The translations under genes were made by a program, and so were the position numbers. The notes beneath the pieces are model-generated. The model saw only the letters and a list, made by a program, of their open reading frames with translations, was not told the DNA's origin and did not search any database. 64,000 nucleotides of DNA, from NCBI RefSeq assembly GCF_000003815.2, contig NC_049979.1:14929459-14993458 (forward strand), read 5' to 3'. Of the stretch, positions 5,076 through 56,165 are shown in pieces. The DNA is from Branchiostoma floridae (lineage: Eukaryota > Chordata > Leptocardii > Amphioxiformes > Branchiostomatidae). Each line of letters starts with the position of its first letter. Position 1 is the first letter of the stretch.

Positions 5076-5273
5076 ATGTCACCGCTCGTTCTCTGGTCCT
5101 TCTTGTTAGGACTTTTAGTTCCCCTGACTTTCGGACTGACAAGAACTGATTTTTACCCGTATGGCGTGGAGTATGGAGACTCTGAGCTGCGCAAGGGCGA
5201 TGAAGTGAGCAGTGACCCCATCCCTCTCTTCTCCCCCGTCTACTTCTACGGAACACGCTACCAGTCCCTTTTT
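5076..5273 (+). CDS. nid: Nidogen exon 1: signal peptide and start of NIDO
   Basis: 66 codons. The ATG at 5076 opens a hydrophobic signal peptide ([17 protein letters not shown]) followed at about residue 21 by [10 protein letters not shown], the typical mature N-terminus of nidogens. It is preferred over in-frame upstream sequence because the signal peptide starts here. Donor TTT|GTAAGT, phase 0. Confidence 0.92.
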
Positions 5274-20200: not shown

Positions 20201-23200
20201 AGACACCCAAGTATGAAAGGACTTAAAGATAAAGCATATGATTTATTAAGCAAATTAAGACTAGTAACACCTTAAAGGTGTATCAGTAGATGCCCAGAGT
20301 GACAAAGGGCAATTTCAATTATAACATTTCTGTCCTTTAGAACTTTTCTAAGAATAAGGTATCATATGGATGAACTAAGATGAATGATTAAGTTACAAGG
20401 AAACTGAGACATGTAGTTGATAGAAGATGGGAAAATGGATTTACCTGGATGTCATCCCTCAGGTGGAGTGTTCAAGCGCTCTGCCGTGGTGACCTTCCGC
20501 CCTGGCAACCAGGTGTTCCAGGTGGAGCAGGACTTCCAGGGTGTGGACGAGTTTGGTTACCTCACCATGACAACCAAGCTGAGTGGAGAGCTGCCCCCCA
20601 TCGCTGCCGGAGACAAGGTCGTGGTCGGAGAGTATCAAGAGATCTACCAGAAAACTGCTCCTGGTAAATCAGATGGTCGTGATAATCGTGTATAGGGAAT
20701 TAAACTCTTCCTATTGTCACTCCATGGAAAGTTGGCGGTGATACGAATAATTCTGTTTAAAGTGATATTTTTGTATCTCATGGTATGGTCAAAATAGACC
20801 TCTGCATTTGTGGATGATGGTATTTTGGGTATTTCCCCTTCTTCTAATTCTGTTACAAGTTGAAAATGATAATGCTGAATTTAGACGCAAAAAATTATTC
20901 TTGTACAATTTAAATCTGGAAACATTGTGAATAAGCTACAACCTTGGAAATACTACAGTCCATGATTGATGCATGTATTTCAATGGCGATGTTCAGAAAT
21001 TGAACAATCCATAAAAGCTAACCAGTGAAGGGTTAATTTACTAGTACTGATAAAACGTTTGCTGCAGGTCTGATCAAGTCCATTGCCTCCCGTGGCTACA
21101 CCGTTGCCAACCGAGTTTACAACTACACCTGGGACCAGACTATTGAGTATGATGAGGCAGGTTGCAACCTACCAGCTGAAGGTCTGGTCACCGACTCCCT
21201 CCGTGTGGACGTTTCGCGCAATTTCGTGTTCTTTGACAACAAGGAGGAAATTGTGAGATACGCCATGACCACCAAGGTGTCACCCATGGCAGGTTGGTAG
21301 CAAGAAGTTGTTTGAAAGCTTGTTAATGATGTGACATGACAATTTGGCATAACCCATATNNNNNNNNNNNNNNNNNNNNNNNNNNNNNNNNNNNNNNNNN
21401 NNNNNNNNNNNNNNNNNNNNNNNNNNNNNNNNNNNNNNNNNNNNNNNNNNNNNNNNNNNNNNNNNNNNNNNNNNNNNNNNNNNNNNNNNNNNNNNNNNNN
21501 NNNNNNNNNNNNNNNNNNNNNNNNNNNNNNNNNNNNTCGTGCCCGCTGTGTGGCCCTGGAGGGGCAGCAGTACACCTGTGAGTGTGTGGGAGGCTACACT
21601 GGAGATGGGCGCAATTGTCAAGGTATAACAATCTTCTGACCCTCAATCTGTCTTTTTTTCAACAAGAAGATAACTCACTCATCACAGCAGAATTTCTGCC
21701 TAAGACTTGACTTAACAGAAAGGTGACATTACACTCTGTCTTGTTGTTAAAAGCAATCTATTGCTGTGACTGTTTTCAGATATCGACGAGTGCACTAGTG
21801 GAACGCCACCTTGTGCTCCCAATGCCAACTGCATCAACGAGATTGGAACTTTCCGTTGTGTTTGTCCTCCTGGCTATGAAGGGGATGGCTTCTCTTCCTG
21901 CACTGGTAAGTTGTTGTTTGGGATTTTTGTGTGATGTCTATGGTAGACTGAATGTCATAATGTTTATGTATAGATTTATCTGCACTTGTATTGCCACCTG
22001 TTGACAAAACAGTGCAATTGAGAGAAAATCAAATCTTGACAGAGATACAGCATGAAAACTTGTGTGCTGTTAGATGGTAGGTCTTGATACAAGCAAGTAA
22101 ATCCTGAACTGACCAAAATTGAAATCTGATCTATAAATATTCAAAACGTTAGTAACTACGAGAACCTTGTTTTCCAGCACTTTCTCCCCAGCCATCTCAA
22201 AACCCGTGCTATGACGGAACCAACGACTGTGATTCTCTTGAGCGTGCTCGCTGCATCCCTCTAGGCGCAGGGCGGTACAGGTGCGAGTGCAACCCTGGTT
22301 TCACTGGTGACGGCCGCACGTGTGTAGGTAGGTCATGGGTCACAGGTAAAAAGCTTGCTAAGCGTATTGTTAACTATGCTGTATGGTAAGTTGCTCGCCT
22401 TGGCTGGAAAGGGAGGGCATGTGATCACATGTTTGTAAATGTTACCTCCCTTCTTTCTTCTTGTGTGTGTGTTTGCCTGTTGCATGCCTGTTGCATGCCA
22501 ACTGCTTTTGCAGATTATGTTTCCTCAAAATGTTTGTGAGTATACCAGTCCCCTTTAAAGCTTAATTTTAGTCTTTTTTTTTTTACTTTGTTGTTCAGTG
22601 TTTCATGTAACATACTATAGCAAACTCTGCTTTCTAGAATAACAACTTATGGTAATTTTTGTTGAAACTAACGGTGCTTCATGCATGTTCTATTTGAATC
22701 TTAGCTTCTGAATAGATAATGGAAAAGACTAGTTGTGTTCACTCTCTGCTACTTTCCCCAATGTTTGCTACCTCCGATCGCATGTCCTCTCTCTCTTGCA
22801 TGGCGGTAAGCTATGGCGGGTGGTGGTGTTTGGTTCATCTACCCACATTTCCAAGCATGGGACCCTATCTGGTGATGATGCTTGCAAACTGGTGGTGACG
22901 CTTGTTGTTGTTGTTATCGTTGTTGTTGTTCCATGTGTCGAGTTGGTTCCTCCCCAGAGTTTAAGTTTGAGCACCCATGTGTGGAGGGCTCTCACGGCTG
23001 TGATGAGGAGACCTCCATGTGTGTTAAGAGGGCCGGTCTGAGGTACGAGTGTAAGTGCCTGCCAGGATACAGAGAGAAGGGCGACCACTGTGTTAAAGGT
23101 GAACACATGATTTAGGCTTGTAAAATCATATTATGTAAGACAGTTATGTAAGATACCTTTCCTTATGATCCATACTCAACTGCCATTGCTTGTCTTTTGC

Positions 23201-26200
23201 GTGAAGTTAAAACCATAATTTGTAAATTCTGTTTTTGGTTACATCTTCCCTTCTAATCTGCATGTTAAAAAATCTCATGTTGCCCTAATGTTGACTTCTG
23301 TTGCATGTTATATTGATGCACTTCACTTGCCAAAATAATCCTTACCTCATTCCCCCCCCCATATATTGTCATAGTTTGAACATTTGTTAGTACAACTACA
23401 AGTAGGTACATGTACAATAGGGCATAGTGTTGGAGCTAATAAGTAGTATTAAATCACTGACACTAGTTGTCTTCCATTGAAAGACTACCCCAACCCCTGT
23501 AACAAGACCAGTTGTGGCAGACATGCAGTCTGCGTTGGTCGTTATAACCCCGACAATGACGAGGCGTCACTCATCTGCAAGTGCAAGCCAGGGTTTGTTG
23601 AGGTGGCAGGGAAGTGCCGCCCCAAACAGTCTGTTGTCTGGAAGGGAGTCAACACGACAAAGAAGAACAAGAATAAGACAAGGAGAACAAAAAGAGGTTG
23701 GTGAATGGTAGAATTAAACTATTGCTCAAATGTTAGTCCCATACGTCTGTTGTATGATTCTAACCCTTAAGCAAGCTCACTTTATTTTTAAGTCAGCATG
23801 TTTTACCAGTGTTGAATTATGGTCCATGATACACAAATTTAAATTGAAAGTTTTCTCACATCACTTCCTTGCCAGCATGTCCAGTTGTAAGACAGCTTGC
23901 TAAATCAAAGAAGTATGCTGTTATTTCATGGTAATTGCACAGTATGACCACCTGTGACAATGGTAAGAAGGTGTGTTGTGAAACAGAGGACTTGTCTTGA
24001 TGCACCCCAGTAACACTGCCTGCCCTTTCCAGATGCTGGAAGAACAGACCCCTTGTTCTGCGACTGTGATGTTGGTTCCCCCTCGCGGGTGAAACGACAG
24101 CTCCGCTACACAGGTTCTTATTGACCTGGGGTAGATAGGAGGAAGTGGGCTACATCAATCTAATGTCTTGGTTCTCGGGTCTTTGCAGGAAGATTGGATA
24201 TATATGGAAAAAAAATTATGAAATGTTGAGACCCTTTTCTGTCCCATTGCATAAATAGGAAATGAATTCCTAGAACCAAGGTGTTAGATTTGTGTAGCAT
24301 TAGTTTAGTCTTCATCTCTAATTGTTAAATGTGATGGTGATAAGGGGGTGAAGGAAGGGCCTTTTCATATGTTAGGCCTTGAATAGTACTTGCACTGCAT
24401 GTCAAGTTCAAGACATTTATTGACTAATGTATTTATTCCTTTATCTATTATCACCACAAAGCAATGTTATGGTTGTCCAGGTATGGTTGCACAGCTAATG
24501 TTACAGGACACCACAACTTACTTGAATACAATTAACCAGATTTCATATTCAGAACTCTACTGGCAGGAACAGTACACATGGTTATCAATCCTGGATGTCC
24601 CTGAAAACAAGTTATTCAGCCAATAAGACAGTGGCTACATTTGGCTAGCAGAGCATGTCTGCTATTTGGTTAACACAGATAATGCATAGAAACATCTTGA
24701 CAGATGTTTTTGGGTCAATGGGGCTGCTGGATCAGTCTGTTGATATAAAGAAATTATGGCTGTCAATAAAGGTTTTCACACACATTTTTCATCTACTCTC
24801 CTTTAGATTTGATGAAGATTGACTCCATGAGCCCTGCCAGCCAGCTGCAGAACCCCTGTGTGGGGAACAGGTGTGATGTGAACGCAGTCTGCATCCCCAA
24901 CCCTGTACCCAGCGACTGCCCGTGTAAGCAAGACTACACCTGCATGTGTCAGCCTGGCTATACTGGAACTGGCTACAATTGCAGATGTGAGTATATCTTC
25001 TAGATTGTATTGCTGTGATACTCCAATGGAGAGGCAAAACAATTGAATTGTCAAATTGACATTTTGCATTTGTAATAATTTACTTCTCTGTAACATTCTT
25101 ATTTTGATTCAAATATACATATTATAAATATACATGTTATTTCAAAACAACATCAATTGCACCCCTGATCAAAATAGAATCATCCTCATGTAAGTTTTCA
25201 TCTCCAGCTAATGTAATCCTTATGTGATTTAAATACGATCCTTATGTAAGCTTTAAGTTTATATTAGTAAATTTGCCTTAAAAGTTCTGTCATCCTAATA
25301 GCTTACTCAACTGTGACAGACACTTGGAATTGTGTTTTAAATCAGATTCCCAAATGATTACAGAACACATCCATATCACCCCTGCTCAGAATAGAACGAT
25401 CCTTGTGTAACTTCCTAGAAGTTGAGTGGTCCTTGTGTAAGTGGTAACAGTGATGAGGTGGGTGCATGTATTTCCTTGGGCGGTAGCTGATCTGTACCAG
25501 ATAACGTACTTTCTAATAACACAATCAAGATGATCAGTACCAGTACTCTAGCACAGTATTAACCTTCATTTACTAATCTATACTGATAACCTCTTGGCCC
25601 TTGTGGCTCTGCTGAAAGGTCCAGTTACAGGTCCATGCATAACTTAGTGTGAGGATCAGGAACATGTTTGACCCACACACATGGTTATGTTTAACCCCTA
25701 GTGTCACCAGAATACCAGGTTGAGAGTGGACATCACAGTGCCTGTCCTGCTGCAGAAGTGATTCAGTGAACCAACCCTACTTCCTTTTCAGCCAACCCCT
25801 GCCACAGTGGAGAGAGCATGTGTGGCATCAACGGAGTTGTCAGGATGACCAAGAGTGCTTCCCTTCCTGTCAACCCCTGTTACACAGGGGATCACATGTG
25901 CGACATTAATGCGTATTGTGTAGCAGGGGTGGCCAATGAGTACGAGTGCAAGTGCATGCCAGGGTACTCAGGCACTGGATTCAGATGTGACGGTATGCGC
26001 AACATGTGTAGTGGTTGCCCCATGTCTAGATACAGATATACACCTTTCACTAATGTGTTGGTACAGTAAACTAAAATGTGTTGTCGTTTCTAGCATATAG
26101 ACATGCTGATTATTCTGCAGAAGAAGTCTTTCTTCACTTCAGATACACAGACTGACTTGCTTAGCTCAATTACACTGCAATTCAATGTTTTAAGCTCTTG

Positions 26201-29200
26201 CTGATCCAATATATTAGCTAATAGACTGCTTGTAAATCAGTAACAGGTATTGTTATTACTCACCTGAACAAAAGAAGTATTGAAATTTTGGCTAATAGAT
26301 TGCTGTATGTGGCACTGCAAACATTGTTTTTTCTTCAGAATGCATATTAAGCAGAAGCACGTATCAAAAGTAAGTGCATATATAATGCTTGCAGTGTTTT
26401 TCTTTTAATGCATGTTTGTGCCATTTGTGTTACAAGTACACAGCTTGCTTATGTAATCCCCCTGCTTCAGTCCTTCCTGCTCATGCTGCCTCTGCACCTT
26501 CCCCCTCCCCTGCTTTCAGCTGCCAGCCCCTGCTCAAACCATGACTGCCACCCTGCTGCTGACTGTGTAGAGATAAACGCCTTCAAGTTCATGTGTCTGT
26601 GTGGCCCTGGGTATGCTGGAGATGGACGCACATGCGTGCTCTGTAAGCATTTTTGTTGCCTTTACTTTTTATTACTTTTATGGACAAGAGTTTCAGTATT
26701 CCTTGTAGTTTTGATTTCAAAACTAAAGAACTCATCTCACTTTTTATCATTCCAATCTGTCTTGTTGACTTGCATCTTCATCACAAAATTTTGTTCTAAA
26801 TTTGTTGTAGCTTTTACTTTCAGAAAGAATGTTGTAGATGACTACTGACATTTTTGGTAGTGAAGTATCCTCATCCTAAGTGCAAGTTCTAATGTTATGG
26901 CTTTTCCTTGTTCATGAAATCAATAGCTACAGCGAGACACAGTTTACTGTCTTAATTTTCCATATTCTAATTATACAAGTTTTGTTTTCAGATTATTTTG
27001 TGTGGAAAGGGGCCATCTTTTGTGGCTTGGGCAGAAGAACAACATCGGATTAAATAACAGACATCAAACACAAATCTTAAGCATACTGCTGTATATGATA
27101 AAAGTTCCCTCATCTCCTGCGTCCTCCAGCTCTTGACTTGGCGACCTCGACTGACCCCTGTGAACAGAACAGGTGTGACCCTAATGCCCAGTGCATCCCA
27201 TACCAGGACAGGTACTCATGCAGGTGTAACCAGGGTTTCCAAGGAAACGGTCTACAGTGTACACGTGAGTGCAAACTGTAATAAGATATTTGGTCTTACT
27301 AGATTTTTAAGATGCACTTATGTTAGTGGTGCTTAAGTTATCTATGAAAATTAAAATGTTACAAATACAGGTCGGATATCAATCCTTACTGTATTCGGTA
27401 AAACAGGTTATGGTAGATGAAGGATCATACACTGAAGCTAATCTGTTACATGTGTATTTCTTTAAAGCTTGAGTATTCAAACCCAGTAGAGTATTCAAAC
27501 CCAGTAGACTAATTCTTATCAGTGTATCCATATCCCCCTGTTAAACTTTTATCATAAGAGATTGATTGCCTTTGCCCAAATTCCTGACTAAGTTCAGATG
27601 AGGACTGTAGGGACAAAGCGTCTACAGTACAATAAGAACTCTGTTTAATGACTTAGCCATGAAACTTCACATAATCTACCCATAGACCTGTAGTGTAATA
27701 ATAACACAGATTAGAGTTACAGTCCATGCTAGAATGACCACATATAGCCTGCCTCTAGTCTTCTGGAGCTCTACTCGATTCACCCTGCTGCTCCTGGACT
27801 CCATCTTTGGCCTGTTGGAAAGCAGCGAGCATTACGGTCATTCTGACGCTGGAGAATATGACAGTAATGCCCGCTGACTTCTAATGGAGCTTCCTCTCAT
27901 CACTTCTGGACACATCTCGGATCCTCTGCCTCTGCTTCTTCTGACTGAAGCAGGCACACAAGTAGCTTCCTACTTTTAGCCATCTGTACTGTAGTGCTGT
28001 CATAGGAAACACTCCTTCAGTAGCCTTCTGTAGTCACTTGCACTTAAATGTTTCACTGTAGCATGTTTAGTCCATAGTCATTTTCATGGATAGCATAAGA
28101 TTGAGTGTGATACTGTAGTCCATTTATGCACATTGGGTCATTTTTTGGTGGAAAATAGTCAGCGTTTTAGTTGCTTTTAAGGTGTACCTTGTCATCAAAT
28201 ATGCTATCCTTTTGTATATTTTTTTAAGGCCCTTGCATTCGGAAATGTTTCAGAATATAACTGATACCACAGCAAGATGACTTTTTGGCTCTTTATCCTC
28301 ACAGCTGAGTTGATTCAGCCCTATGATGCCTGCGCCCAAAATACCTGTGATCCAAACGCCGACTGCATAGCCATTGGGTCTGCCTACACCTGCAAGTGCC
28401 AGCCTGGGTACATCGGCGATGGGTTTGGCTGTTATCGTAAGGGAACCTTTTATGATATATTGAGACATTTCTTGGACAATTTAACCCATTGCGTGGTAAT
28501 TCATAACAAAGTGTTTTTCATGGAATTTAATATGCGTGAGAGGCTTTAAATTTTAACATTAACGTAATTGGTAGATTCATGGTAACACCCATGCTGTGTT
28601 GTGTGCAGCGGACAGAGGTGCTTTGACAGGAGAGACTAGACAGTCAGGTGTGTGCGGCTCATCGATCTGTGACGTTAACGCCATCTGTGTGGACCGCGGG
28701 GAGGGAATATACACCTGCGAGTGCAAGACTGGTTACCGCGGTGATGGCAGAACGTGCTCTGGTGAGACTTCCATCTTTGGTGTGTCTTTGATTGGTTGTA
28801 AGTTTCAATGGTAGTCACTTAAAAGCACTGCTCCAGCAGGGTGGACAACGTACCTAAGTATGGAACTTAATTACCTTCATGTTTCAAAACCCTAAGAATA
28901 TTAGGGGTGGGCATATGTTAACCTTTGCTTTTATGATATGTCATCATCAGCAGATGCACTTAACTGAGCATTAATTCGAATTGATGTCAGATCAGGCCTC
29001 ATGTGCTGCAGTGACATTATTTTTAATACTTCTCACCATTACATCAACATACTGACAAATATACAAGAAATAGTACATACTTATTCATGATGGATTTGCT
29101 AACCCTTTTTTGCTAAACTGTGCATGTCTGCATGCTTGGTTCAGCTGCTAATGCTTGTGAGCAGTCAAACCGGTGCCATGAGAGGGCGGAGTGCATCCCG

Positions 29201-32200
29201 CTTGGAAACAGTTACACCTGCCGCTGCCAGCTTGGGTACACGGGCGATGGTCTGACCTGCACCTGTAAGTTGAGCCAGGGCACTGCTTATACCACATGCA
29301 CTATTACCATGCATCTTTGTCCTGAATGTGGTTGCTCAAGAATGGCCATTATCAATTTTTTGGGGGCTCTTAAAGTACTTACTACTTTCATCAAAATTAT
29401 ATTTTAGGCCGCGTTTGTCTGTCTGTCTATGTATCTGTATGTTGGTCACCACAATATCTGAAAGATGGATAATCAATGACATCATGGATGGGTGGATTGG
29501 TTTTACATTTGGTTTGTGGTGACAAACTGGAAATACATGTAGTTTTGGGGCTCTCTGTGGCTGTCCACAATACTGCCAAGGAACTTTTGGTATTGATATC
29601 TCATGTGATTTCTCAACCACCTGTGATTTTGAATTTTTTGGTGGAAGATAGCTTCTGGTGTTAGGCCACAGAAGCTTGACGCTCTTGTTTGATGTTTGGC
29701 CAGTGGCTTTCCTTTGGCCATGTCAGTTTTCCACAAACATGGAATATTTGATGATGCAGTGTGTGTTTTACATAAGTACTAGTGATATATATATTTCTAT
29801 TGTATAGAACCAGATATATCATATGCAATCCAAAATCAGTTTGTAATCAGGACATTTGTTTTCTTCTTCCATTCTAGCTATATCCAGAGACCCATGCAAT
29901 CCGAACCCTTGTGGTGCAAGTAATCGCTGCCTTGCACAGGGTTCTACATACAGATGTCAGTGTTCCAATGGATTTCAGCTAGGACCAGCTGGCACATCAT
30001 GCTTACGTAAGTTTCCCTAATTTTTCAGATGATAAAAAGTTTTTACTGCAGTATCCAGAATAGAAACAAGGCAGTTCATCATTTTCCAGTAGAGTGTGAT
30101 GCTGTCTACAGGCACCAAGGGCTATCTACTATTCAACAATTACAAAATTTCATTTTAGGGACAAGCAGCTGATTTGTGCATGCAATTCAGAAAAGAGATG
30201 CTACAGATTTTTAGGCCATGATGTTTCTTCACTTACTTATGAATGTCATTCAGTAAACTGTATACTGATTTGATAGAGCAGTAAATATACAAGTAAAAAG
30301 AAACAAATATAGACAAAATGTTACTTGCTGCCATTAGAAATTTTTCCATGGCTATTTACTTTTTGTCATTGTTTGATGAAATGTTTTTTGGAGACGCATT
30401 TTAGCATCGGGAGTTTTGGTTTCTGATGACAACTTTCTGTTACAGGACAAGCAGTTGATCCGTGTAACCCCAACCCCTGTGATCCCAGAAATGGCCGCTG
30501 TGTGCCACAAGGCTCCACATACCAGTGTTTGTGTAACCCTGGTTTCCAGCTGTCTTCAGACAGAAGAACATGTACTCGTAAGTTTCAATGTTCACCTTAA
30601 GTTAAGACAACTTTCAGTCAGATGAAATATGCAAGGTACCAAAAAACGTGAATTCAGATCCATTTTTGCGAGGATTATATATATTTTACATCATACAATG
30701 CAAATAAGTTTATAATCAGGATATTTGTTTTCTTCTTCTATTCTAGCTATAGCCAGAGACCCATGCAGTCCGAACCCTTGTGATCCTACAAATGGCCGGT
30801 GTATACCACAAGGCTCAACATACCAGTGTACATGTAACCCTGGTTTCCAGCTGTCTTCAGACAGAAGAACATGTACTCGTAAGTCTTGGTGATTCCTTGC
30901 AAATGTTAAGACTGTTTTCTCATAGTCATCAGCCAGATGCGAACTGTATCACATGTGGAGTATATCACATAGCCAATATCTTGCCTAGTACCAGGAAACC
31001 TACCAATCCACCACTTGCTGTCGGAAGAATTGAGTTAAGAGAAAAGTCTATTTTTTTGTCGGTCTAATCTAATCTAAGCCTTTGTTTCTACTTCTAGGAC
31101 AAGCAGTCAACCCATGCAGCCCCAACCCCTGTGATCCCACAAATGGTCGGTGTATACCACAAGGCTCTACGTACCAGTGTACATGTAACGCTGGTTACCA
31201 GCTAGGAGCAGACAGAAGGACATGTACCCGTAAGTGGTTTCAGTGTTCAACTTAAGATAAGACAACTTGTCTTTGTCAGTCAGAATTCAGATTAATTTTT
31301 TGCTAGGATTATCCTTTCAATGGTCTTTCACCTTCCCGTTGACTTTTGTGCCCTTATGTATGTTGTCATCCTACAGGACAAGCAGTCAACCCTTGCAGCC
31401 CCAACCCTTGTGATCCCTCAAATGGCCGATGTATACCACAAGGCTCTACGTACCAGTGTACATGTAATGCTGGTTTCCAGCTAGGAGCAGACAGAAGAAC
31501 ATGTACTCGTAAGTCTTTTGGTTCTAACTTAGTTTTGGTCTTCAATACTGTTGTGAATGATTCTGGAGATTACACAGACCTGAAATCAGGTCCTATTTTT
31601 CTTTTCCCCAAATTGTTTTAGGTTACAAGCTTGATATTAGTGACCAAAGTGTTTCTATTATAGGACAAGCAGTCAACCCATGCAGCCCCAACCCCTGTGA
31701 TCCCACAAATGGCCGGTGTATACCACAAGGCTCTACGTATCAGTGTGCATGTAACGCTGGTTACCAGCTAGGAGCAGACAGAAGGACATGTACTCGTAAG
31801 TTTTAGTTATTGTCAAAGGAAAGATGACCTTTCCTTTTCAAGTTATTATTAAAAGATGTTCAATGTAATCAAAAGCTTTGTTATAATGTTTTCATGTTTG
31901 TCCTATGTACTAGTAACAAAATTTCTATATGTCAGGACAAGCAGTCAATCCCTGCAGCCCCAACCCCTGTGATCCCACAAATGGCCGGTGTATACCACAA
32001 GGCTCTACGTATCAGTGTACATGTAATGCTGGTTATCAGCTGGGAGCAGACAGAAGGACATGTACCCGTAAGTATTTGTGATTATCTCAGGGAATGTTAC
32101 ATTTTGTTTTTATCAGTAACAATATTGTGGAAACATTTTGATATTATGGTTAGTTTTTTTTTTCAATGTTTCAAAGTCTTTGCGTGCATGTGTTTTATTT

Positions 32201-35200
32201 TAGGTCATGTAAGTCCTCAAAATCAGGTCCAGTACAACTTTAAGTTCATTGTTCGGACCTTGGAGATTGTAAGAGCTAGCTCTATGTAACTTGCAAGAGA
32301 TTTTTTTGTGTTCTAACCAAAATGTGTGTGTTGCAGGACAAGCAGTCAACCCCTGCAGCCCCAACCCCTGTGATCCCACAAACGGCCGGTGTATACCACA
32401 AGGTTCTACGTACCAGTGTACATGTAACCCTGGTTATCAATTGGGAGCAGATAGAAGAACATGTACTCGTAAGTCTTTTCATGAATCTCAGTGGAGTGGA
32501 ATTTTTTAAGTCATCATGCACACTGTCTATAAATGTTTCCTTTTTTTGAATTGGTTGATAGGACAGGTCTCTGTGTAACCTAGTGTATTGTTGTGGTCTT
32601 ACTGTAATGTACAATTTACAGGACAAGCAGTCAACCCATGCAGCCCCAACCCTTGTGATCCCAGAAATAGTCGGTGTATACCACAAGGCTCTACGTACCA
32701 GTGTGCATGTAACGCTGGTTACCAGCTGTCTTCAGACAGAAGGACATGTACTCGTAAGTCTTTTGGTTGTGAACTTATATCTGATTGAACTAAACATTTT
32801 CTCCAGTATTCAAACCTTTCTAATGTAAAAAGACCTTCTTTCAAACCGGAATGCGTGTGTTTGTGTTACAGGACAAGCAGTCAACCCCTGCAGCCCCAAC
32901 CCCTGTGATCCCACAAATGGCCGGTGTATACCACAAGGCTCAACATACCAGTGTACATGTAACGCTGGTTACCAGCTGGGAGCAGACAGAAGAACATGTA
33001 CTCGTAAGTATTAGTCGGTTACTTCAACACAGAGAGTGGAAAATCTATGCGCGTCATAAAATTTTGTTAGTACTGTATCAGTTTCTGCTTTTAACTGAAA
33101 ACCCATGCATCCCTAATACCTGTGTTACTTGAATGGCTGGCGCATGATCCAATGGTTTATGCCAGCCCAAGTGGTCAGTCAGAAGTACTCATAAGTTTTA
33201 ATCATTCCTTGCAGTTATCAATAATTAGATTTTTGAATCCATGGAAGGAATGGACTGTGTATTGCGTAACCAACATACTACCATTCATCAGAAGATGTAC
33301 CAAAATACCTAATTGTCTTTTTGTCTTCTAGGTCAAGCAGTCAACCCCTGCAGCCCCAACCCCTGTGATCCCAGAAATGGCCGGTGTATACCACAAGGCT
33401 CTACGTACCAGTGTGCATGTAACGCTGGTTACCAGATGTCTACAGACAGAAGGACATGTACTCGTAAGTCTTGGTGATTCTTTTTTTTTTTTTAGGTCAT
33501 CAATCAGATTTTTGACAACACAAGTGGCGTGTATCACATAATCAGTGAACTGTCACCTATCAGGAAACCTACCAATTAACAGGAAAGGTCTATTTTTGTG
33601 TGTTTTGGTCTAAATTAAGCCTTTGTTTTCAACTTCTAGGACAAGCAGTCGACCCATGCAGCCCTAACCCCTGTGATCCCACAAATGGCAGATGTGTTGC
33701 TCAGGGCTCTGTGTACCAGTGTTTGTGTAACCCTGGCTATCAACTGTCATCGGACAGAAGAACGTGTACTCGTAAGTCCCAATCTTTCACTTGAACATGA
33801 TGTGGGGCCCTCTTGCAGGTTGATAGCAATTGTGCCAAAGGATGTTTAAGGCCACACCATAAAATCTGGGTTAAGTTTAATGTATGATTCGAAAAAACTA
33901 ATTTCAATGTGTTGTCTAAGTCTAACCAAATTGTCTAAACTGTCTGTCTTTCAGGACAAGTCTTTAACCCATGTGTTCCCAACCCCTGTGATCCTACCAA
34001 TGGTCGATGTGTACCTCTACAAGGCTTTCAGTACAGATGTGAATGTAATCCAGGTTTTCAGCTGTCTGCAGACAGCAGAACATGTCTTCGTAAGTTTTCA
34101 TCATTGGGTGTTACAAAATGCAAGGAAATGAAACCACGAGACATATTTTTCTGGTTATGGGTATGCCAGAGAAGAATGTTGGAAAGAGCACATTCTTTAG
34201 ATAGTGCAATGGGAAATAAGAAAAGTGATATGATTTAACACATTCATGGCATAACATAGAAGACAAAGAAGACAGAGCAAGTCTTTATTGCCTGTATTTT
34301 TCTTCTAACTTCAGTGACTCTTCAATGTGTTTGGAACCTGACATTTACCCAGGTAGATCAGTTTTTCAACTGGCCACCCAGACAGCCGATTATGTATCTA
34401 TAAGTTTTTTCGTCACTACTTGTTTCATGTAACTAACATTACTTTCAATAGTAATAGCATAGATAATTATACTCTAATTCTGTCCTCTTTGTGTGTAAAG
34501 CCGTACCCCCACCAAATCCCTGTTTCCCAAATCCATGCGACCGAGTCCGTGGACAGTGCATTCCACAAGGATCGACGTTCAGGTGCACATGTAGTGCAGG
34601 GTTCCAGCTCATGGGGGATGGACGGACTTGTGCCCGTGAGTTGCACTGACAATCCTGTTGGGCACCTGCTTGGCAAGAGGCTCTTCCTTTTGCTGGTTCA
34701 ATTCAATACAGGAGTAGCTGCTGTGCATAGGTGCTCAAATGTTAGATCTACTATTTCAAGTTTCCAGAATGTGCTCTTGATGTGACACGCTATTGTTTAA
34801 ACCCTAGAGCTGCGGAGAGACCCCTGCCAACCTAACCCATGTGACCCGACCAATGCCCAGTGTATCCCAGAAGGAGACAACTTCAGATGTGTATGTCGGC
34901 CAGGATTCCAGTTGGCTCCAGACGGAAGGACTTGTAATGGTGAGTCATCTCAATTCATTTTCCATGCTATCACAGTTAATGTGGCTTTTCTCTTTTACAT
35001 TGTGTGTTTTATAATTTGTGATTTGTAAAACATCAAAGCTCACACTGTACCCTTTTATGAAATAGCACAGTCAGGAAGTCTGATATTTCCATTTACAGAA
35101 TGATGGCCTTTTCCATCACATTATTAGTTAACCACTCACATTAATGTCATATTCTTGCAGCCATTACTATCCCCCCACTATTTAATCCTTGTGTACCGAA

Positions 35201-41200: not shown

Positions 41201-44200
41201 AGCAATTTTATTGCTGGGTTCTTAACCTGTACAACTTAGCAATTTGCCTTATAAATTGCCTTTTATATTATTACCATAAATTACATTTATATTGTTTTTA
41301 TACTTTTTTGCTTGGAAAGATGCCAGATAAAATGACACTAGTATTTCTGTTACAGTGTTAGAATCACAACACTATGTTATATGTTTGGAGTCTTAAATGT
41401 TTTTGTCTTTGTGTAAGCAGAGGAAGACCCTTGTGATGCCAACAACTGTGACGCAAATGCAGACTGCATCAGAGAGGGCTCGTCTTTCAGGTGTCAGTGC
41501 AAACCACCCTTCACTGGAAACGGATTCACCTGTACAAGTAAGAACAGATTTAGTCCTTATTGTTTGTTGTACATTTTTCCTTCTTTCTCTTATCTCTCTT
41601 TTGTTGTTCTCTCATATACTGGTCACTTTGAATTTGGAAAATCATTTCCCCAGTTTCAAGGGCACCTTGTTGGAATCCATTCACTTTTTTTTACTACTTC
41701 CCTATATGTCATTGCATCTTTACTTCGCATAAAAGTCCTATTCCCCATCCAGATTTTAAGTGACCAGTGTGTATTCTTTTTCCTCTGCCTGTCCTGATCT
41801 GTCCCCTTTTTTCCCTTTATTCTGTCTTGTGTAATTGTACACTCTGTCCCAGTCTCCTTTGCCACACTTCTTTTTCTACTTCTACCTTTGACTGGACAAA
41901 AACCATCACCAGTCATCCTTCCCAATGGAGGTAGTCAGCTTCTTTTGGAACATTTATCTTCCCTGTCCTATTGCAAACTTGTGGCACTGCAGGTACTTGT
42001 CTGTCTTTCACCAGATCATCATGGGTAGTTACAGTTGTCTTATTCTTTTGATTTGAGCAACTGATTCTTACTGAGCTGTATTATTAGTCCATTAGGTTGT
42101 GGATTGCATGCTTTGGCAGTAATTAAATCATGTTCATTGGACAACAAGAACAGAAATATAAGGAGAACAACAATGAAGTATGCAGTTTTGTAGGTTTAGT
42201 TTTAAGAAGTAAACAATCAGTCATTGAGACATACTTCTGATTATTCTATAGATAACTTGAAAGGTGTTTATGCAATGTATTTTGTAGACTTTGTTTCACT
42301 CTCCATCAGTAGATAGTTCTAGAGCTGTGAAATTTCTGTTTGTCAATGAAACATGTCTCCCTTCCAGTTCCAAATATGTGCATCTTCCAACCCTGTGACA
42401 TCAATGCTGACTGCATCAGCCAGCCTGGGTCCTTCAGCTGTCGGTGTCGTCAGGGTTACCAAGGCGATGGACACTACTGCAACCCAATCCGTACGTACCT
42501 TTAGACAGTTCTGCTATATATCAGTTCTGCTATATAGGCCTTATTTCAAATAATTACGTACTTCTGGCACTAAGGAGTATGATAAAAGGAAAACACTACA
42601 TATTGATCTTCAGCAGGAAATGCTGTGTGGCTGGATATTCCAAAGATAGAAGTTAAGACATACCATATAGAAGTAGAGACATTAAGTTCAAAGATCAGAG
42701 GTGGTATTTGCTGTGAGCTATCCCTACAATATTTCATCATGTGGTTGCATCTGGGCATGTCTGCCATTTTGTTGGTCAAATTTTTTGTCATTCACATGTT
42801 GTTAGGAAGCAGTTGTCTGTGCTGTTGGATCCGTTTATTGCAGTAAAATACTAAACTGACATAATGCTTTTGTAACAAATGTGTCTCCTTCTGCCTCTCT
42901 TACAGCGGATCCCTGCTCCCATCCTGACTGCAGCCCAAATGCCAAGTGCATCCCCAACATGGTAACAGGAGAGCATACGTGCGAGTGTCTCCCCGGATAT
43001 ATTGGCAACGGCATTGTCTGCACAAGTATGTATTTAGAACTTAACTGTTGACAAAATGTTTGTAACATGACCAAAAGTCAAAAAGAAAATTCAATGTTTC
43101 TGACCTAAATTAAACATTTTTACTGCTATTTTTACAGGTAACACCATTGACCCTGGACCTGTAGACCCTGACAACAAGGATACTGACAACAACGGAACCC
43201 CTCCTCAGTGTTCGACCAATGACTGTGATGCGAATGCCAACTGCATTGCAGTTGGGGATGGATACAGCTGTGTATGCAAGCAGGGGTATGTGGGAGATGG
43301 CAGAACATGCACAGGTAAGATGATGTACAGGTAGAGTTTGGACAATATACTATTTAATAGGTACAGATACAATGGTACATGTAGAGACATCTCTCTGATT
43401 GGTCATGGAATCAACCAATCAATGGCAACTTTTTTATTAAGTCCCTCAGCAATTTGAACTGTTCATCTTATAGTTAAGAATAGCATGTCAGACTTGTAGC
43501 TGAGATGATGAAAAATGTGTTGAGTTCAGCCATGAAGAGTTCTGTGCATACTTTGCAAGACTGATACAAATAACTCAATTTATGTTTGTGTATTGGTTGA
43601 TTGCTTGTTAAATTGATTGATATGTTGTTTGCTTTTCAGAACTGGATCCCTGCAACCCAGATCCATGTGGCCCCAATGCCTTCTGTTTGAAGCATGGCAC
43701 CCAGTGGAAGTGTCGCTGTAACAAGGGCTTCCAGGGCGAGGGTGACCAGTGCTTCGGTAGGTCACACTTTGAATATCAGTCACTCTGTGCGCCTTGATGG
43801 CTTAGGCAATGCAAAGTTTGTGGATGGCATCTTTTATAGACACCAAACTCAAATTAAAAAGAGTGAAAAAGAAAAAAATTGAATATGTTGATTATATGAA
43901 GGGCTGCTTTAGTATTTAACTCTACATTCTGTATTGTCTCATTTGATCGCAATTTTTAAATCCAATTGTTTAATAATTTAGTGCTGACTACAATTTTTCA
44001 GCATTTTGCTGCCAGTTATGCAATTCATATTTCGCAAACCTATTTGTAACTTATGTAACCTGGTTCCTCCCCAGTGATCGAAGGCCCGGATCCTTGTCGC
44101 ACCAGTGACTGCCACCCCAACGCCAACTGCCTTCCCACCAGCTCCTCCTACAGGTGTGAGTGCCGAGCTGGATACAAGGGAGACGGTCGTCTCACCTGTA

Positions 44201-47200
44201 ACCGTGAGTACTCTTTATTGTAGGGAAGGTACAGTGTGTTTGCATGTGGTTGAAGTGGCGAGCCCAATCATTCACGGAATCTACGGGAGGGCAGCCTTCT
44301 AAGGTACATTTTTGCACCTGTTTTGTCCTCCCTTTCACTATGGAAAAACCCAAATAAAGAAATAAAGGAATCTAAGAATGGACTTTGCATACTGATAGTC
44401 TGATGTCCGCTAAATATCCAGAGGTAAAAAGATGTGTCTGTTCAGAGGGAAGTAGTTAGTTACCAATTGAGCGATTTTGCTCAATGTTTTTGCTTATGAC
44501 ATGTTTTTAACACACAAAAATTTGTGTGAAATGACATCATATGGCAGCTTGCACACTTATGATATGCCCACATGGGGTTAAACTTACTAGTAAAAGGTGT
44601 GTCAGGAGGACAAGGAAAAAAAAAAAAAAATCTTACAGGACCTAAAAAGTTTTTTGGGTTGCGCAAATTATGTTGTTTTAATACTTAAGCATGTTGCCAA
44701 TTCGATTGAATCACAGCATATGGCAATCAGATCTTGACACAAAGAAAGAAGGAGAATGACTTGTGTTCATCTCATCCCATCCCTAGCTGCTGACCCATGT
44801 GATGACAACAAATGTGACAGAAATGCCATGTGCATCCCTGTCGGGCCGCGGTCCTACAGGTGCGAGTGTAAGAATGGTTACCAGGGCAACGGATTCTCCT
44901 GTGGAGGTAACTGATGTTCGATTTATGTCTTGTTCCTTGTTGCACGTCAGGAAAACCAGCTACAAGTTGAAATACAATATTGGTTAATAGAGGATATAAT
45001 ATTTAGTTCAAGACTTTCCCAGTCAGAGTGTAATGGTTTGTCATGGTAATGGTTGTTAGAATCCCACATGATTGGTTTTACCTTGACCTTTACCTTAAAT
45101 TGAACTGGAACAAGTTTGAGTTATCTAGTATAGTCTGTAAATAAGATGAATGAAGTTAAAGGTTTATTGAATGCTTTGACAGTGATGAAATTTGATATTC
45201 GACATCTTGCGTTTGTGGTGTAAAACAAACCTAAATTTTGTGTATTATGTGGCTCCAGCTGCTGCTTCCATTCGGGCTGGAGAGGACCCCTGTGGCCACC
45301 TGGTCTGTGATGTGAATGCACGCTGTCTGTTCTTGGGGGGCAGGCCGATCTGTCGCTGCAATCAGGGATATGTGGGAAATGGATTCTTCTGCAAACGTAA
45401 GGAGCTTTAACATATCAGTTTGCATTTTACCTATTGCAGCACTATTTGTGGTTTGCTTGTTTTGAAGTGAAGATGTTAGCAGGCCATCACCTTACCATAG
45501 GTGGAAGGGAGGAACGTCATGCAGGGCTCGAAATTCATTTTTGGGATTAGGTGCACTGGTACACCCAGCTTAAAAAATTGGGTGCACCAAAAATTTTTTG
45601 GGTGCACCACTTAAATTTAAGTAGAATGTCAGAAAAACCTAATAATAAAACATAGTTACATGCTATCAAATTCTTAAACAAGTACCATGACAGACATTTT
45701 TATTATCTTTCTAACCCTTAGATGTCAAGAATACGATGTATACTAGTACACTTTGATATCTTTACATACATAAACCCATGAAAATATTTGGGTGCACCCT
45801 GTGCACTCACAGAAAATAATTGGGTGCACAGCTCCAATTTTGGGTGCACCTGGGTGCACATGCACCCAGTATTTCGAGCCCTGTCATGGAATGTTTGGTA
45901 TTCCCTACTTTTGGTGACAGTGCATGTTCCTCCTCCAGCACATGGTGGGATCTGGCATGCCTATCAAAAAGAAGGAAGAAAAGACTTCACTGGTCACTAA
46001 ATGAAGCACTTCTTTGCTTTTAGTTATTTTTTATTGAAACCCTTATGTCCAATAACCAAAAGTTTGCCTTGTAAGGAATGCTAACTTTACAATTTGTAGC
46101 AACCATTCAGCACAGAAGTTAACAGGGTGGAGGAAATGCATGCATGTGTATTATCTGCGGGCTTGTCTATGACAAGTCATGGATAATGAGATTGTGGCCA
46201 ATCTTCAGGTCCAGATGGCACAAGCAACAAGTGGTTTTAAGTTTTTGCAAACACAAAGTATTTGAAGAATTTTGGCGTCTCCTCTGTAAGTACAGTGGAA
46301 CAGTGCATTCGTAATTGGCATCAGTTTTGTGTTGGTTACAGCTTGTTGTACAAAGAATGTTAAGCTAACATTGAATATCCTTTATGTTAAGTTTCTGAGG
46401 CAGGCTGGACTATGTGTTAAAATTTTTGTTTCTTTTTGTTACTGCTGCGCTGCTCTCCCTATCACCCTAGATACTGCATGTACAAGTATCGTGTCATAGA
46501 TTGCAGTAGTTTACTGCATATAAATGTACAATGTAACTTCTGTGTTTTTCTCACATGGAATTTTCACACTTTCTGGTGTGTAAAACTAGATAGACTCTTC
46601 TCACACTTGTCTTCTCTACTCACATGTCTGAGTGTCTCCCCTTCACAGGCTGATGTCTTAAAGGAGCTGATACCAGGATTATGAGAAGCTTGTATATTAG
46701 CGAGTCCGCAGCTGAAGAAGTAATATATTTTTGGACAGGTTGCTATGGCATATTAGGATGGATTTTTATGAATGGAAGCAAAAAGCTGTAATGAATGATA
46801 ATTTTGGAACTCATTTTAGATGCACAGTTTAGTTATAGTTTAAAAAGAAATCAATAACCTCTTTTAATATGTTATTCACATAACAGTTGGGATTACCTGT
46901 ATATTGAAGAGTTTTACTGGTAGATGATGTTTTAATTAATAAATCTAAATAAATGTTAGAGATATAATCGTAGAACTGTGCATGTTTGTTTTTTTGTATT
47001 TTCAATTTTGTCTGTCGAGTCTACTTTGGCACTTGTCTTTGTAATAAGTCATTTATTTCTGTTGGCACTTTTCTTCTCAGTTTTTCTTGTGTTAATTCGT
47101 CACCTTATTGTGATATAACACTTCAAACAATAATTTCTTTTTTCACTCTTGGTTGAGACACAAATAAACTTGTGGTTTCTTTCCTTTCTTCTGCTTTGTT

Positions 47201-50200
47201 TGAGTTGTTGTGTTGCATTGATTTCTAGCTCATACATGTTATGCTCTTTAGATGTCACACATTTTTTATCAAGACAGCATAAGTTTGGAAAGTTAAATAA
47301 AAGGTATGAAAGAACATGTTAAATTAATGAAGTTGAGCAAGAGATGAAATGCAATGGAGGGCCCCAAAGCATGAGCAATGTATATTCAGTAAATAACCAT
47401 GATAGGAGCCAACTATGATAACCAAGCTATCAACATAAGGAAATAGTTTTGTGGCTGGTGTGATAAGACAAGATTGATAAACATCTTATCTAAAAGTCTG
47501 AGCCAAAGCTCCCTATGGGACAGGGATTGCTATGTCACATCTCAGTTGTAAGACTTCTGAATCTCACAAGCAGCTGGACCAAATCTCTTCATACTGGTTG
47601 TTTTGATTGGTCTGTTCTTGGAAAGCTGTAGCATGCCAGATGGACTTGATTGTAACTATTGTCCCAAGAAACACCATGGTTGGTCCTGGTGGAATTAAAA
47701 GTTAAAACCCTAACATTTCTAAATGATATCTCTAGCAGTGATGAAAACTTTCATCTTAAAAAAAAAAAACTACTTCTAACTTGTTTTTCTAACGGGAACA
47801 TTAATTAGTTACAACGACTCATTAGTCAGTTACTCTTATAAAAGCTGGATTAATAAAAAAAGAATGTCCTGACTTCACAAGAATTAATTGCTCCCAGTTG
47901 CTGACCAGTAACTCTGACATAAGAAAGCCTGCTTGCTTGTAGGGGATCTCATGACCCTTAAAACCTACTGTAAAACTACTTACTGTTGTAGCAGTGAAAA
48001 TCATCCTCGTACTTTTGACCTTAACCATCTTATTTTCTGAACTGAAGAGGATTTTCAGCAAGGTGTGCCCTCCTTACATAAAGCAGTTTTGTACTACTGC
48101 AGAAAACGTAATGCTTTCTGCAAAAATAGCTGAGTTTTCTTGGCTCAAATATACTCTTTTGCAGTGGTCCTAATTAAGATAATTAGGCCCCCTGACTTGT
48201 GTCTCTGTTCTGTGTGTCCTGGTGTCCTTTTTGGCTGATATAACATGGCTTGCTGCCCAGACAGCCCAGCCAAAAGCTGGTCTCACTTATGGGGAGCTCA
48301 AAGGTAAAGCCGGGAATTGGAACCAGCTCTTACTTGTTTGACCTAATGCTGTCTTCTTAAATGAGTGGTTTAACTTCTCAGGATTTGCAGCAGGAGACAC
48401 TGTCTTGGATCTTGTCTTGTGACACGCATAGGTTGGTGTCTGGTATGTGTGCATGGCTCTTTGCAGGATGCAGGTAGACACTGGTTGCACAATCCTGTAA
48501 TTAGTGCAATCCAAGTGTTTCTCACAAAACTGTAATTTTGGTTACCAATTATTTCCTTCTGCAGCATGGAAGTTGGCCCACATTTTTGTCACAGCACACA
48601 TTTCCACAAATTAATGCTTGCAGGCACTTGAAGTAATCTATCAACGACTGTTGTCACTTATAAAAACAACTGCACTTTTTACAATGAAATATTGCAGCTG
48701 GTAGACAAAATAAGACACTTTGCAAATAACTCTCAATCAATTACATTGCTGGTGCACTTCACAATCGGGTGCTTACTTTTAGTGTCCTGAGTTTATTTTG
48801 CAGCGCTTCAGCAGCAGCTTTTTTCGCCTTTGCTCTTACTGCATGATCAGAGCAATATCCACCCTGTGCAGTGGTTGCAGCCAACAAAGCTAATTTTGAA
48901 AGCATGATATGCATGTGACATGCAAAAGATGTAATCCTGAATTATAGCAGCTATTCCTGTATATTTTCTCTTCTTTTTCAGCTGCAGTGCGGTATGCACC
49001 TGCAAATTGGCTGGACCCCTGCGCCAGCAATGAGCACGACTGTGACAGAGACTTCGGCAGATGTGTGTACGAGGGCCAGGGCAGGTACAGGTGTGAATGT
49101 GCACCTGGCCATGCTGGAGATGGGAGGACATGCAATGGTAGGCTACCATTTCAATTTTAATTTCATACTGCACTTGTAGAAAAACAGCATCAGCCAGATT
49201 CAGCCATTCTGGCCAAGTTCATGTTTTGGGGGGCAGGGGGAAGAAAATATCTTTGCCAGGAAAATTGTTCATGTCAACATCCTAATTCATGAATCTGTAA
49301 TCCACTTGATTCTTCTACTCACACACATTTAACAGTATCATCAGTTGTATATAACAGATTCTTGGCATTCCCCCAGACCAGTTTGGCTTTGTGAGATTCT
49401 TTGGCATTGAGTTTTCCTTAGCATAGCTATATTTCAATCACCCCCTCTTGTGGACCTTGCCTGAATTGCAATAAAACATGGCTTCAAGTCTGCTGGTGGT
49501 GAAAAGATAATGCTATATTTTCTTCTGATGTGTTACCTATGTTTGCAACCTAACAGAATATGTTTTAATAGCTATATTATGCTGACAACGTCAGCATAAC
49601 ATCAGCTGTAGTTCTAACAACATTGCTTATGACAGTGCAAGCCAATGTGACTCTTTCCTTGAAATGAACAGATTTATTCATGATCTTCTTGATCAATATA
49701 GCACATTTATGACATGTAATTTTCAGTCCAGCAGTCAACTTTAAAAAAAAACATGATTGAGTTTAGTGCTAAAAGAAGCAGATTTGAACCTCGATGTATA
49801 AATTGGCTGACTGATATATATTGTACAATGTTCTGCAACATGATGTACAAACATGTTATGTTAGATCAGTCCTGCGCTTCATGTGACACATGCTCAAGGA
49901 GTGTTTGCAGAAAACAAAAGTCATTCCGTTTTCCTGTACATGTCAGCTTTTCTGTGTCACAGTAAAGAGACACCCATATTACATATTGATGTTGGCATGT
50001 CCAGTCATGCTTTTATTGTCGGACTAATCCAGACACCTCTGTGTTTCCATTTTCAGATGCATGTTCCATGCTTCCCACTTACTTCTCTGCAGCAGCATAG
50101 TGCTCCCTGCACTTGCATGGCTGGCTGTCCTCCATCCACCCATCTCTCCATCCCTCCATCCTCCGTCACCACTCTGGTGCAGGTTTGTGAAGCCGTCCTA

Positions 50201-53200
50201 AGGTCAGTGGCTTGTGATGTGTGCTGTATGTCGGCAAGCTTCTAACCAATCTCACCTGGTGATCCTCCTGTCTGTCAGCTTGGTGCTGAGCTTTTTTTTA
50301 AATTTAAGAGATTGCAGAAAGGTTTCACAGAAAGTTAGTCTGGTAGAAAACCATTTGCAGGCACAAAGTGCACAACCAATTAGACAAACAGGAGAGAAGC
50401 CTTTGCTTGCATGCTGCGCTCCATGAGAAATGACACGTGCACTTTTCGTAATCTTCTCTCCGCACATAGCCATAGCGGCTCTCCCCAGCCCCTGCGAAGA
50501 GGGGAGTCACAACTGTGACGAAAATGCCGTGTGCATTAATGAGGGTGCAGGCAGATATTCCTGCCGCTGCAGACCAGGGTTGGTTGGAAATGGATGGACC
50601 TGTTACGGTAAGGATCCCATTGGTAGGTCCTGTCTATGAGCTTCTTATTGTTACATTGCATACCCATGCTTGCTGGCTTAATACTATAGTGTGCTTGAAC
50701 AAATCCATGGCACAGTCAAGTCTGGAAGTTTGTTCTACGACTAGACCCTTAAAAAGACCCCAAGAATTTTATGAAACTGAAACTGTTGTATCCCAGTTGT
50801 GGTTGGCAGGTTGCTCAAATTGAGTTTTTCTTGTGCCATGGATGCCAACTGTGGGTAGATGAACCTTCATGTGGGATTGTAGTTTCATGTATGGAGGTCC
50901 ATGTTTGCTTGCCCATCTGGTGGTACCGAGTATGTTGCAAATGGCTTTTCTTTTGATAAAACCAGCAAATTCTTTGCTAGGGATGAAGAATATAACAGAC
51001 AAATACCAGCTCACAGCTCACAAAAAAGTTTCAGATGGGCAGCAGCAGGATTTCTGTGTTAACAGTGTTCTGTAATAAAGCTCTTGTCCAAAATTGCTGT
51101 GTCTATGAGTAGTATCTCCTCCAACCCCCCTCCCCACAGCCACCCCTGTACAGCCCCCAGCCAACCCCTGTGATCGGGCAGCTTGTGCCCCCCCTGGACA
51201 GGGCTTCTGTGTGCCCGTCAGTCTCACACAGTATCGCTGTGAGTGCCTGCCTGGATTCAGGGATATAAATGGAGATGGAAGGGTTTGCCAAGGTTGGTTT
51301 TAAATTGTTTAGTGCTTGGACACATATATAGTGTACATGTAAATTCATTGTCAAGTATGATATGTGCAGAAATTCTCAACTCGGTGGCTAAGGCATCCTG
51401 TGTGTTAAGCAGTTATATCACTTCATGGAACAATATATATTAGTGTATAGTTAGCAAAAATAGGAGCTATGTGGCAAACTGTGGTCGTCATTTCCTAATG
51501 TACATAATTTACAGAAAATTATGTATTTGACAGAAATTTAAATCCATGCACATGTTACCAGTAGTACATGGGTAAGTAGTGGCTTTATGCCCCAAGCATG
51601 AGTTATGTAGAGAGCTGTACATCTGTCATGTCTGAGATTTTTCATTTGAGCTGAGACATAATGGCATGTATAACTAGTGCCTCTACCCCCATAGCCATCC
51701 AGCCCCCAGGCCCTCAACCCACAGGCAACCCATGTGACCGTGCCAACTGTGCACCCGAGGGGCAGGCCAAGTGCATCCCTCTGGGCCCCACTGACTACCG
51801 CTGTGAATGTCTGCCAGGGTACAGTGGTGATGGGAGGGTCTGTACAGGTATGGGTTTAACACTGTGTCAGTCCAACTGCCTTATATGTGCGTAGCGGAAA
51901 GTGGGTAGATATCAACACTTGTAAATTTAGGATCTTTGGAATCTTGGTAAATTTTGGAAGACTGGTGCTGGTAGCCCTCAAACTTTCTATGAAAGGAATG
52001 AACTTCAGAATGAACAAGATTTATTGAAGCATACTGTTTTACGAGACTTCTCATCCTGTTTCCTGCGAAGAAGGTAGTGAGTATGTACCACCCTATCAGC
52101 TAAACCATGCCATGTTTATTCCTGTCTTTATTTGTAATGATGATTGTATATTGTTGAGTATTGTAAAGTATTCATTTAGAAAAAGCAAAAACAAGTAGTG
52201 GTATGTTGTATGATGTTTTTTCTACTTTTAGACATGGATGAGTGTGACCTGCTTGACCCTGCCTGTGACCCCAACGCACGCTGCATCAACACATTTGGGT
52301 CATACCGGTGTGAGTGTGCGCCTGGGTTTGTTGGAGATGGCAGGACCTGCTCTCGTGAGTTGGATATTTTCTGTGTCTAAGAAAAAAGGTGTATTTAATG
52401 TTAATTTGATGTATTTTAATGTCCTGCCACTATGTTAAACTCTTAGATGAGGACCAGCCATTGGAATGCACAATATAGTCTTGTCACTGCAAATCACCTT
52501 GTGTGATTATACTACTCAAGTGACAGTTTTGCCATCCTTTTTTTACTGTACATGCATTAGACCTCCTGTGTTGTGTACAAGAGAATAAGGTTTGTCTTTC
52601 TCTCCCTCCCAGCTGTCGGCCAGGCACCCCAGGCCTCTCTCCTGTTTGCCCAGGGCATGTCCATCAGCCGCATCCCAGTCCCAGCCCAGGGTTACCGCGG
52701 GCAGATAGTCGGCTCCCAGTCTGCAGCCCGCGGGAAGAAGGTGCTGGTGAAGGCAGGCATGACCGCGGTGGGGATTGACTACGACTGTGTGGATGGGTAC
52801 ATGTACTTCACTGATGTCACCGGCAGGTCTATCAGCCGTGCCAAGATGGACGGCAGCCAGCCAGAGGTCATCATCAGCCAAGGTCACTATTTAGTTTTTA
52901 GAGTTTGGTTTCTGAATTATTCCCTCTAACAATGATGCTGATCTGGTCAGGATAATCTTCATTAGGCAGCTATGCCTGTCCATGCTTACCTCTTTCATAA
53001 CTCACCTCTCTACCCAGGCCTGAGCAGCCCCGAGGGTGTAGCTGTGGACTGGATCAGTAAGAACCTGTACTGGACAGACTCTGGAACTGATGTCATCGAG
53101 GTGTCCAAGCTGGACGGTACAAACCGTAGGGTGCTGTTTAGGGATGACCTTGTCAACCCCAGGTCCATTGTGGTTGAGCCATTCAGTGGGTAAGTACAGG

Positions 53201-56160: not shown

Positions 56161-56165
56161 TTGTC

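Follow-up and report, generated by a model that had tools for sequence, protein, structure and literature searches.

In most accounts, nidogen has a short rod and connects laminin with collagen IV. Here we analyse a 64-kb window of the Branchiostoma floridae genome (contig NC_049979.1; by the window we mean the whole of this stretch), which contains a nidogen gene whose rod, the part between the G2 and G3 domains, is encoded as 51 EGF modules. In the account given by PMC6177204, the vertebrate nidogen rod has four EGFs plus one or two Tg modules, that of Drosophila 12 EGFs and that of C. elegans 11. An earlier note on this DNA had allowed vertebrates about five or six EGFs at this place, a figure that the same account corrects. 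The Drosophila and C. elegans nidogens are described as having no Tg1 (PMC10972974). Echinoderm nidogens are likewise reported without the TY/Tg1 motif, with a C-terminal EGF in most and with a structure very similar to that of vertebrates (PMC10381214), and a predicted nidogen-like protein of Ciona is described with three Tg1 motifs (PMC3464141). As for lancelets, a Branchiostoma belcheri nidogen is placed in the tree of the echinoderm review, where the legend names it and leaves its size unstated (PMC10381214). Among the matches listed from the open-licence literature, the available text describes no nidogen with a number of EGFs near 51 and gives no size for an amphioxus nidogen.

The lancelet gene shares with vertebrate nidogen-1 and nidogen-2 the order of NIDO, EGF-G2F, EGF rod and YWTD propeller, and with nidogen-1 the C-terminal EGF; unlike the vertebrate proteins, with their four EGFs and Tg, it has 51 EGFs and no Tg1 was found. 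An EGF rod without Tg1 is the arrangement reported for Drosophila Ndg and C. elegans NID-1, which differ from it in having 12 and 11 rod EGFs. With the echinoderm nidogens it has in common the absence of TY/Tg1 and the C-terminal EGF, whereas a giant rod is not mentioned for echinoderms in the available text of PMC10381214. The earlier claim that the rod would be several times longer than that of vertebrates holds in module count (51 against 4), but its vertebrate-only yardstick does not, since long invertebrate rods made of EGFs only, of 12 and 11 modules, are on record. On these published descriptions, the EGF-only rod is a known invertebrate form and it is the number of modules that stands out, at about four times that of the fly and about 13 times that of vertebrates. 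A possible precedent for module amplification, by analogy, is lancelet tenascin, for which 35 FN3 domains are reported in B. floridae and 41 in B. belcheri (PMC11401434). It too belongs to the extracellular matrix and contains a long run of repeats, although it is a different protein and its modules are FN3 instead of EGF.

The nidogen gene and its EGF rod

The gene lies on the + strand between positions 5076 and 55153. Its exons were joined by hand in this one genome, using the sequence, the splice signals and the phase, and the resulting model has 66 exons in a single open frame, which runs to about 3,226 codons and has no internal stop; 11 of these residues are unknown and serve as padding for a run of N at 21360-21536. 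All 65 donors are GT and 64 of the 65 acceptors are AG, the acceptor without a visible AG falling inside that gap. The N-terminus, judged by eye from the sequence of exon 1, is hydrophobic and signal-like, and is followed by NIDO (G1), a linker, EGF plus G2F (G2), the 51 EGF exons, the YWTD propeller (G3), a further EGF and the stop codon (Table 1). We consider it probable that this is a single nidogen gene, apparently intact, and that its spacer from G2 to G3 grew to 51 EGF modules as middle exons of phase 1-1 were duplicated repeatedly.

A six-frame search with an EGF pattern gave 51 matches on the + strand and none on the - strand, against a mean of 0.2 and a maximum of 2 in 20 first-order Markov simulations. 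Fifty of the matches fall in the rod, from G2 to the propeller, and the remaining one is the C-terminal EGF (55038); the 50 rod matches together with a half module at the edge of the gap (21537-21622) make up the 51 rod exons. We therefore recover the array described in the earlier note, which ran from 21537 to 52354, the first of these positions being where the gap ends and the second the end of module 51. Its further statements, that the exons are in frame, nearly all of phase 1-1 and nearly all of one module each, also agree with the splice model. When the best acceptor and donor were picked with phase disregarded, both came out as phase 1 in 46 of the 50 complete rod exons (module 1, whose 5' phase is hidden, is not among these), and in the remaining four the phase was needed to choose the site. 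The exceptions to one module per exon are modules 6 and 7, with eight cysteines each where the other 48 complete modules have six. The exon of module 7 (25792-25992) opens with a truncated extra EGF of two cysteines fused to a complete EGF, and is the only rod exon of this kind.

The nidogen identity proposed earlier was borne out when pieces of the model, rod module 1 being left out, were scanned against Pfam at 0.001. NIDO (PF06119) was matched over profile positions 2-185 of 186 with an E-value of 1.2e-56, as expected for the G1 of a nidogen, and G2F (PF07474) over positions 1-180 of 184 with an E-value of 2.1e-61. The EGF part of G2 alone reached 24.1 bits with EGF_3, which is under the Pfam cut-off of 28.5; G2 as a whole, an EGF plus the 11-stranded G2F barrel, matches the solved structure of mouse nidogen-1 (1gl4) with an E-value of 1.2e-57 and also aligns with 1h4u. 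The residues that we take to be the perlecan contacts of mouse G2, namely H429, Y431, Y440, E616 and R620 in the numbering assumed here, are all five identical in the 1gl4 alignment. G3 contains three Ldl_recept_b stretches at 0.001 (E-value 1.7e-38). Its propeller scored 240.6 bits against nidogen 1npe (E-value 2.4e-70), compared with 214.3 for the best of the four LRP4 propellers, 192.8 for the first propeller of LRP6 (the only one compared for that protein), 173.8 for LRP8, 163.1 for the best LRP2 domain and at most 142.5 for LDLR. When scores are summed, the multi-propeller LRP chains outrank nidogen 1npe for G3. With the scores in hand, both G2 and G3 appear closer to nidogen than to other solved structures.

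Between these two domains there is the EGF rod expected of a nidogen, in which Pfam recognised, at the same threshold, 8 EGF_3 matches in modules 2-12, 16 cEGF in modules 13-29, 17 EGF_3 in modules 30-50 and one EGF_3 in module 51. The Tg1 module of vertebrate-type nidogens was not found: the motif CWCV is absent from all six frames of the window, where three looser motifs were also tried, and PF00086 is not among the Pfam matches at 0.001. One CFC match, at 36703, was considered as a Tg1 and dismissed, as it sits in intron sequence broken by stops. A loose scan for EGF exons that might have been missed, in the 3.6-kb intron or on the other strand, gave only the G2 EGF (18006) and the half module next to the gap.

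Table 1. Features of the nidogen gene, with positions in the window
Feature	Position	Strand	Basis
Exon 1: start codon, hydrophobic signal-like N-terminus, beginning of NIDO/G1	5076..5273	+	sequence read; in open spliced model
NIDO/G1 exons	14100-14381, 14554-14694, 15402-15481, 16499-16731	+	Pfam NIDO PF06119, E 1.2e-56
G1-G2 linker	within exon 16499-16731	+	spliced model
G2-opening EGF module	17965..18111	+	loose EGF scan; EGF_3 24.1 bits (cut-off 28.5); aligned with 1gl4 EGF
G2F beta-barrel exons	19806-20054, 20463-20663, 21068-21292	+	Pfam G2F PF07474, E 2.1e-61; 1gl4, E 1.2e-57
Run of N (assembly gap) over acceptor and first half of rod module 1	21360..21536	.	sequence
Rod EGF 1, visible 3' part, four of six cysteines	21537..21622	+	sequence, spliced model
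Rod EGF 2, calcium-binding type: DIDEC head and hydroxylation consensus	21780..21905	+	peptide, EGF_CA match, consensus scan
Rod EGFs 3-13, divergent	22178..30006	+	exon table
Rod EGF 5, basic tail ending RRTKR	23484-23696	+	motif scan
Rod EGF 11, with RGD	28609-28761	+	motif scan
Rod EGFs 14-25, alike block, 16-23 most alike	30446..34089	+	exon comparisons
Rod EGFs 26-29 (28 and 29 alike, pS 0.26)	34501..36524	+	exon table, pS
Rod EGFs 30-36	37012..39791	+	exon table, pS
Rod EGFs 37-46	40030..45396	+	exon table, pS
Rod EGFs 47-50	48982..51847	+	exon table, pS
Rod EGF 51, calcium-binding type: DMDEC head and hydroxylation consensus	52232..52354	+	EGF_CA 36.8 bits, consensus scan
G3 YWTD propeller exons	52613-52882, 53018-53189, 53457-53614, 54005-54131, 54472-54590	+	Ldl_recept_b, E 1.7e-38; 1npe, E 2.4e-70
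C-terminal EGF exon and stop codon	55027..55153	+	FXa_inhibition-type EGF, 35.1 bits

Could the array instead join two adjoining genes, one encoding NIDO, G2 and EGFs and the other EGFs and the propeller? We regard this as very improbable, as neither part would amount to more than half a nidogen, and phase and frame are continuous through every exon. The longest rod intron, of 3,585 bp between modules 46 and 47, does contain seven polyA-like hexamers, but such hexamers are also present in 15 other rod introns. Three signal-peptide-like first exons of phase 1 occur within rod introns, where 50 shuffles gave a mean of 0.6 and a highest value of 3; however, the antisense scan for signal exons gave one, so that the excess is weak at best, and the 3,585-bp intron contains none of the three. 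The strongest of these frames (22439-22555) is in the intron between modules 3 and 4 and has a phase-1 donor, possibly by chance.

On either side of the nidogen gene, Pfam identified reading frames on the - strand, those of a BTB/BACK gene at 281-1384 and those of RTRAF (RLL family) at 56755-62684, which delimit the nidogen gene at either end. Neither of the polyA signals AATAAA and ATTAAA occurs within about 1.9 kb 3' of the nidogen stop (55154-57100). Ten unexplained open reading frames, chosen from many by length and place in a search for nested coding genes, gave no Pfam match at 0.01. A 51-base tandem repeat (40275-40450; 3.5 copies, 97 per cent) is present in the intron that follows module 37.

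Probable growth of the array

The ends of the rod look ancestral and its middle amplified. The ends are read as old because the calcium-binding and hydroxylation signature is limited to modules 2 and 51: these two alone among the 50 complete modules carry the hydroxylation consensus, and both have acidic calcium-binding heads (DIDEC and DMDEC). In human nidogen-1, the calcium-binding EGFs are the second and fourth of the rod. It looks, by this comparison, as if the expansion took the place of the third slot, or started from it, in which case the old end modules would have stayed at the ends of the rod and the added modules would lie between them.

The copies are not equally alike. The mean proportion of synonymous differences (pS) is 0.65-0.81 in blocks 2-12, 26-29, 30-36, 37-46 and 47-50, and 0.38 in block 14-25; for the 28 pairs among modules 16-23 it is 0.23, with a mean proportion of non-synonymous differences (pN) of 0.036. 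Mean pN is lower than mean pS in all seven tabulated blocks. Outside the alike block, the pair 28-29 also has a low pS, of 0.26. Exons 16, 19 and 22 encode identical EGF cores, and alike exons still differ synonymously (pS 0.10-0.38).

The likeness does not extend into the introns. Around modules 16-23, ungapped identity drops to 0.26-0.36 more than 20 bases beyond the exon edge. Comparison of introns 12-29 by local scores put 3 of the 153 pairs above a z of 4, at 8.5-9.6, where the highest value was about 3.5 in 306 unrelated pairs from the same gene and about 6.1 in 600 shuffles. BLAST between introns gave three matching pairs (12-14, 15-23 and 14-16). Introns 15 and 23 match, although the identity of the exons that flank them is no higher than 0.837 (15-23) and 0.791 (16-24). 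The nearest exon to 23 is 21 (0.953) and the nearest to 16 is 18 (0.969), and the introns of those pairs are unmatched. Exon and intron histories therefore disagree, and gene conversion that stops at the exon edges is the best explanation. To judge from these comparisons, it is most likely exon-bounded conversion that keeps the central copies alike, a mechanism that is favoured but not proven; very fast intron turnover combined with constraint on synonymous sites is the alternative.

The 150 of 153 intron pairs that look unrelated, which suggest exon-bounded conversion, also argue against duplication in the assembly. That the array is partly an artefact of false tandem copies or merged haplotypes might be suspected from the run of N in the rod and from the identical EGF cores encoded by exons 16, 19 and 22, but it seems to us barely credible. 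A false copy would bring its introns along, whereas the introns between alike exons differ in length and sequence; the alike exons carry the synonymous differences noted above; and the gap is about 9 kb upstream of the alike block. Assembly duplication of that block was accordingly rejected, its introns being unrelated.

Proposed role of the rod

By analogy with other nidogens, G3 would still hold laminin, at a gamma LE module, and G2 would still hold perlecan and collagen IV. The insert of 51 EGFs may then act as a long flexible tether, the rod setting the distance between the two networks. An EGF module is about 2.5-3 nm long, from which the extended reach of the rod would be at most about 130-150 nm; the long arm of laminin measures about 77 nm. 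The extended figure is an upper bound because vertebrate nidogen-1 is described as globular as well as linear (PMC4227867). In Drosophila, the rod of Ndg is reported to be needed for localisation to basement membranes (PMC6177204), and hence, by analogy, binding of partners may be a further function of the rod here. Candidate places for it are the RGD of module 11 and the basic tail carried by module 5. This RGD is located in the loop preceding the last cysteine of its module, and vertebrate nidogen-1 likewise carries an RGD in one of its rod EGFs.

The most far-reaching proposal, which we hold to be somewhat less likely than not, is that a single chain of about 350 kDa has replaced the short linker. 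Its 51-EGF rod, of up to about 130-150 nm, could exceed the laminin long arm, and would tie laminin to perlecan or collagen IV across the thickness of the basement membrane instead of at one spot. Gene conversion restricted to the exons would keep the central modules uniform, and the unrelated introns would protect the array against unequal crossing-over.

Several points weigh against the main reading, that of a single gene for a nidogen with a lengthened tether. Only 50 of the rod modules are complete, half of module 1, with its 5' phase, being hidden by the gap, and the first 75 residues of G3 taken alone gave no PDB match at 1e-5. The estimate of rod length depends on the general figure per module, and the globular forms reported for vertebrate nidogen-1 would mean a shorter reach. 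As regards conversion, likeness between introns can also vanish through insertions and deletions, which is why it stays unproven, and global intron alignments gave identities of 0.73-0.98 over aligned positions, yet only 0.20-0.58 of the columns match. These global identities are inflated by cheap gaps, and we relied on the local scores and BLAST instead. The two remaining points, the symmetry of the rod exons and a furin-like site after module 5, each lead to a different view of the protein.

Since the 50 complete rod exons are symmetric, with phase 1-1, any subset of them keeps the frame. It is conceivable that, of the 51 modules encoded, most transcripts skip many, giving a family of nidogens with rod lengths tuned by tissue or stage, and the short introns 14-24 (118-328 bp) between alike exons would invite such variable joining. 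On the other hand, 37 of the 51 rod donors fit GTRAG, the commonest hexamer being GTAAGT (23 of 51), and a mean pN below the mean pS in all seven blocks is as expected for exons that are used. We give this possibility some weight, while doubting it.

The furin-like site could part G2 from most of the rod. If the whole chain were cut there by a furin-type protease, G1-G2 with five EGFs would be released from a separate 46-EGF-G3 piece, and no laminin-to-collagen linker would result unless the pieces reassociate. The site, RRTKR before DLM at residue 831 in the Lys/Arg-rich tail of module 5, is the sole RX[KR]R motif of the 3,226-residue model. Four N-glycosylation motifs were found, those at 820 and 827 being within 12 residues of the site and that at 770 in the same exon. 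Nevertheless, such cleavage seems unlikely: the furin motif is short, at only four letters, the basic patch could equally be heparin-binding, and the tail hangs on a weak GTTGGT donor, although the same donor also ends the last G2F exon and module 49.

If a single long chain is made, as proposed here, the lancelet gene offers a natural spacer about four times that of the fly and about 13 times that of vertebrates, with which the role of rod length in nidogen becomes directly testable. In addition, modules 14-25, where the copies are alike and the adjoining introns unlike, are a useful case for how long protein arrays stay stable.

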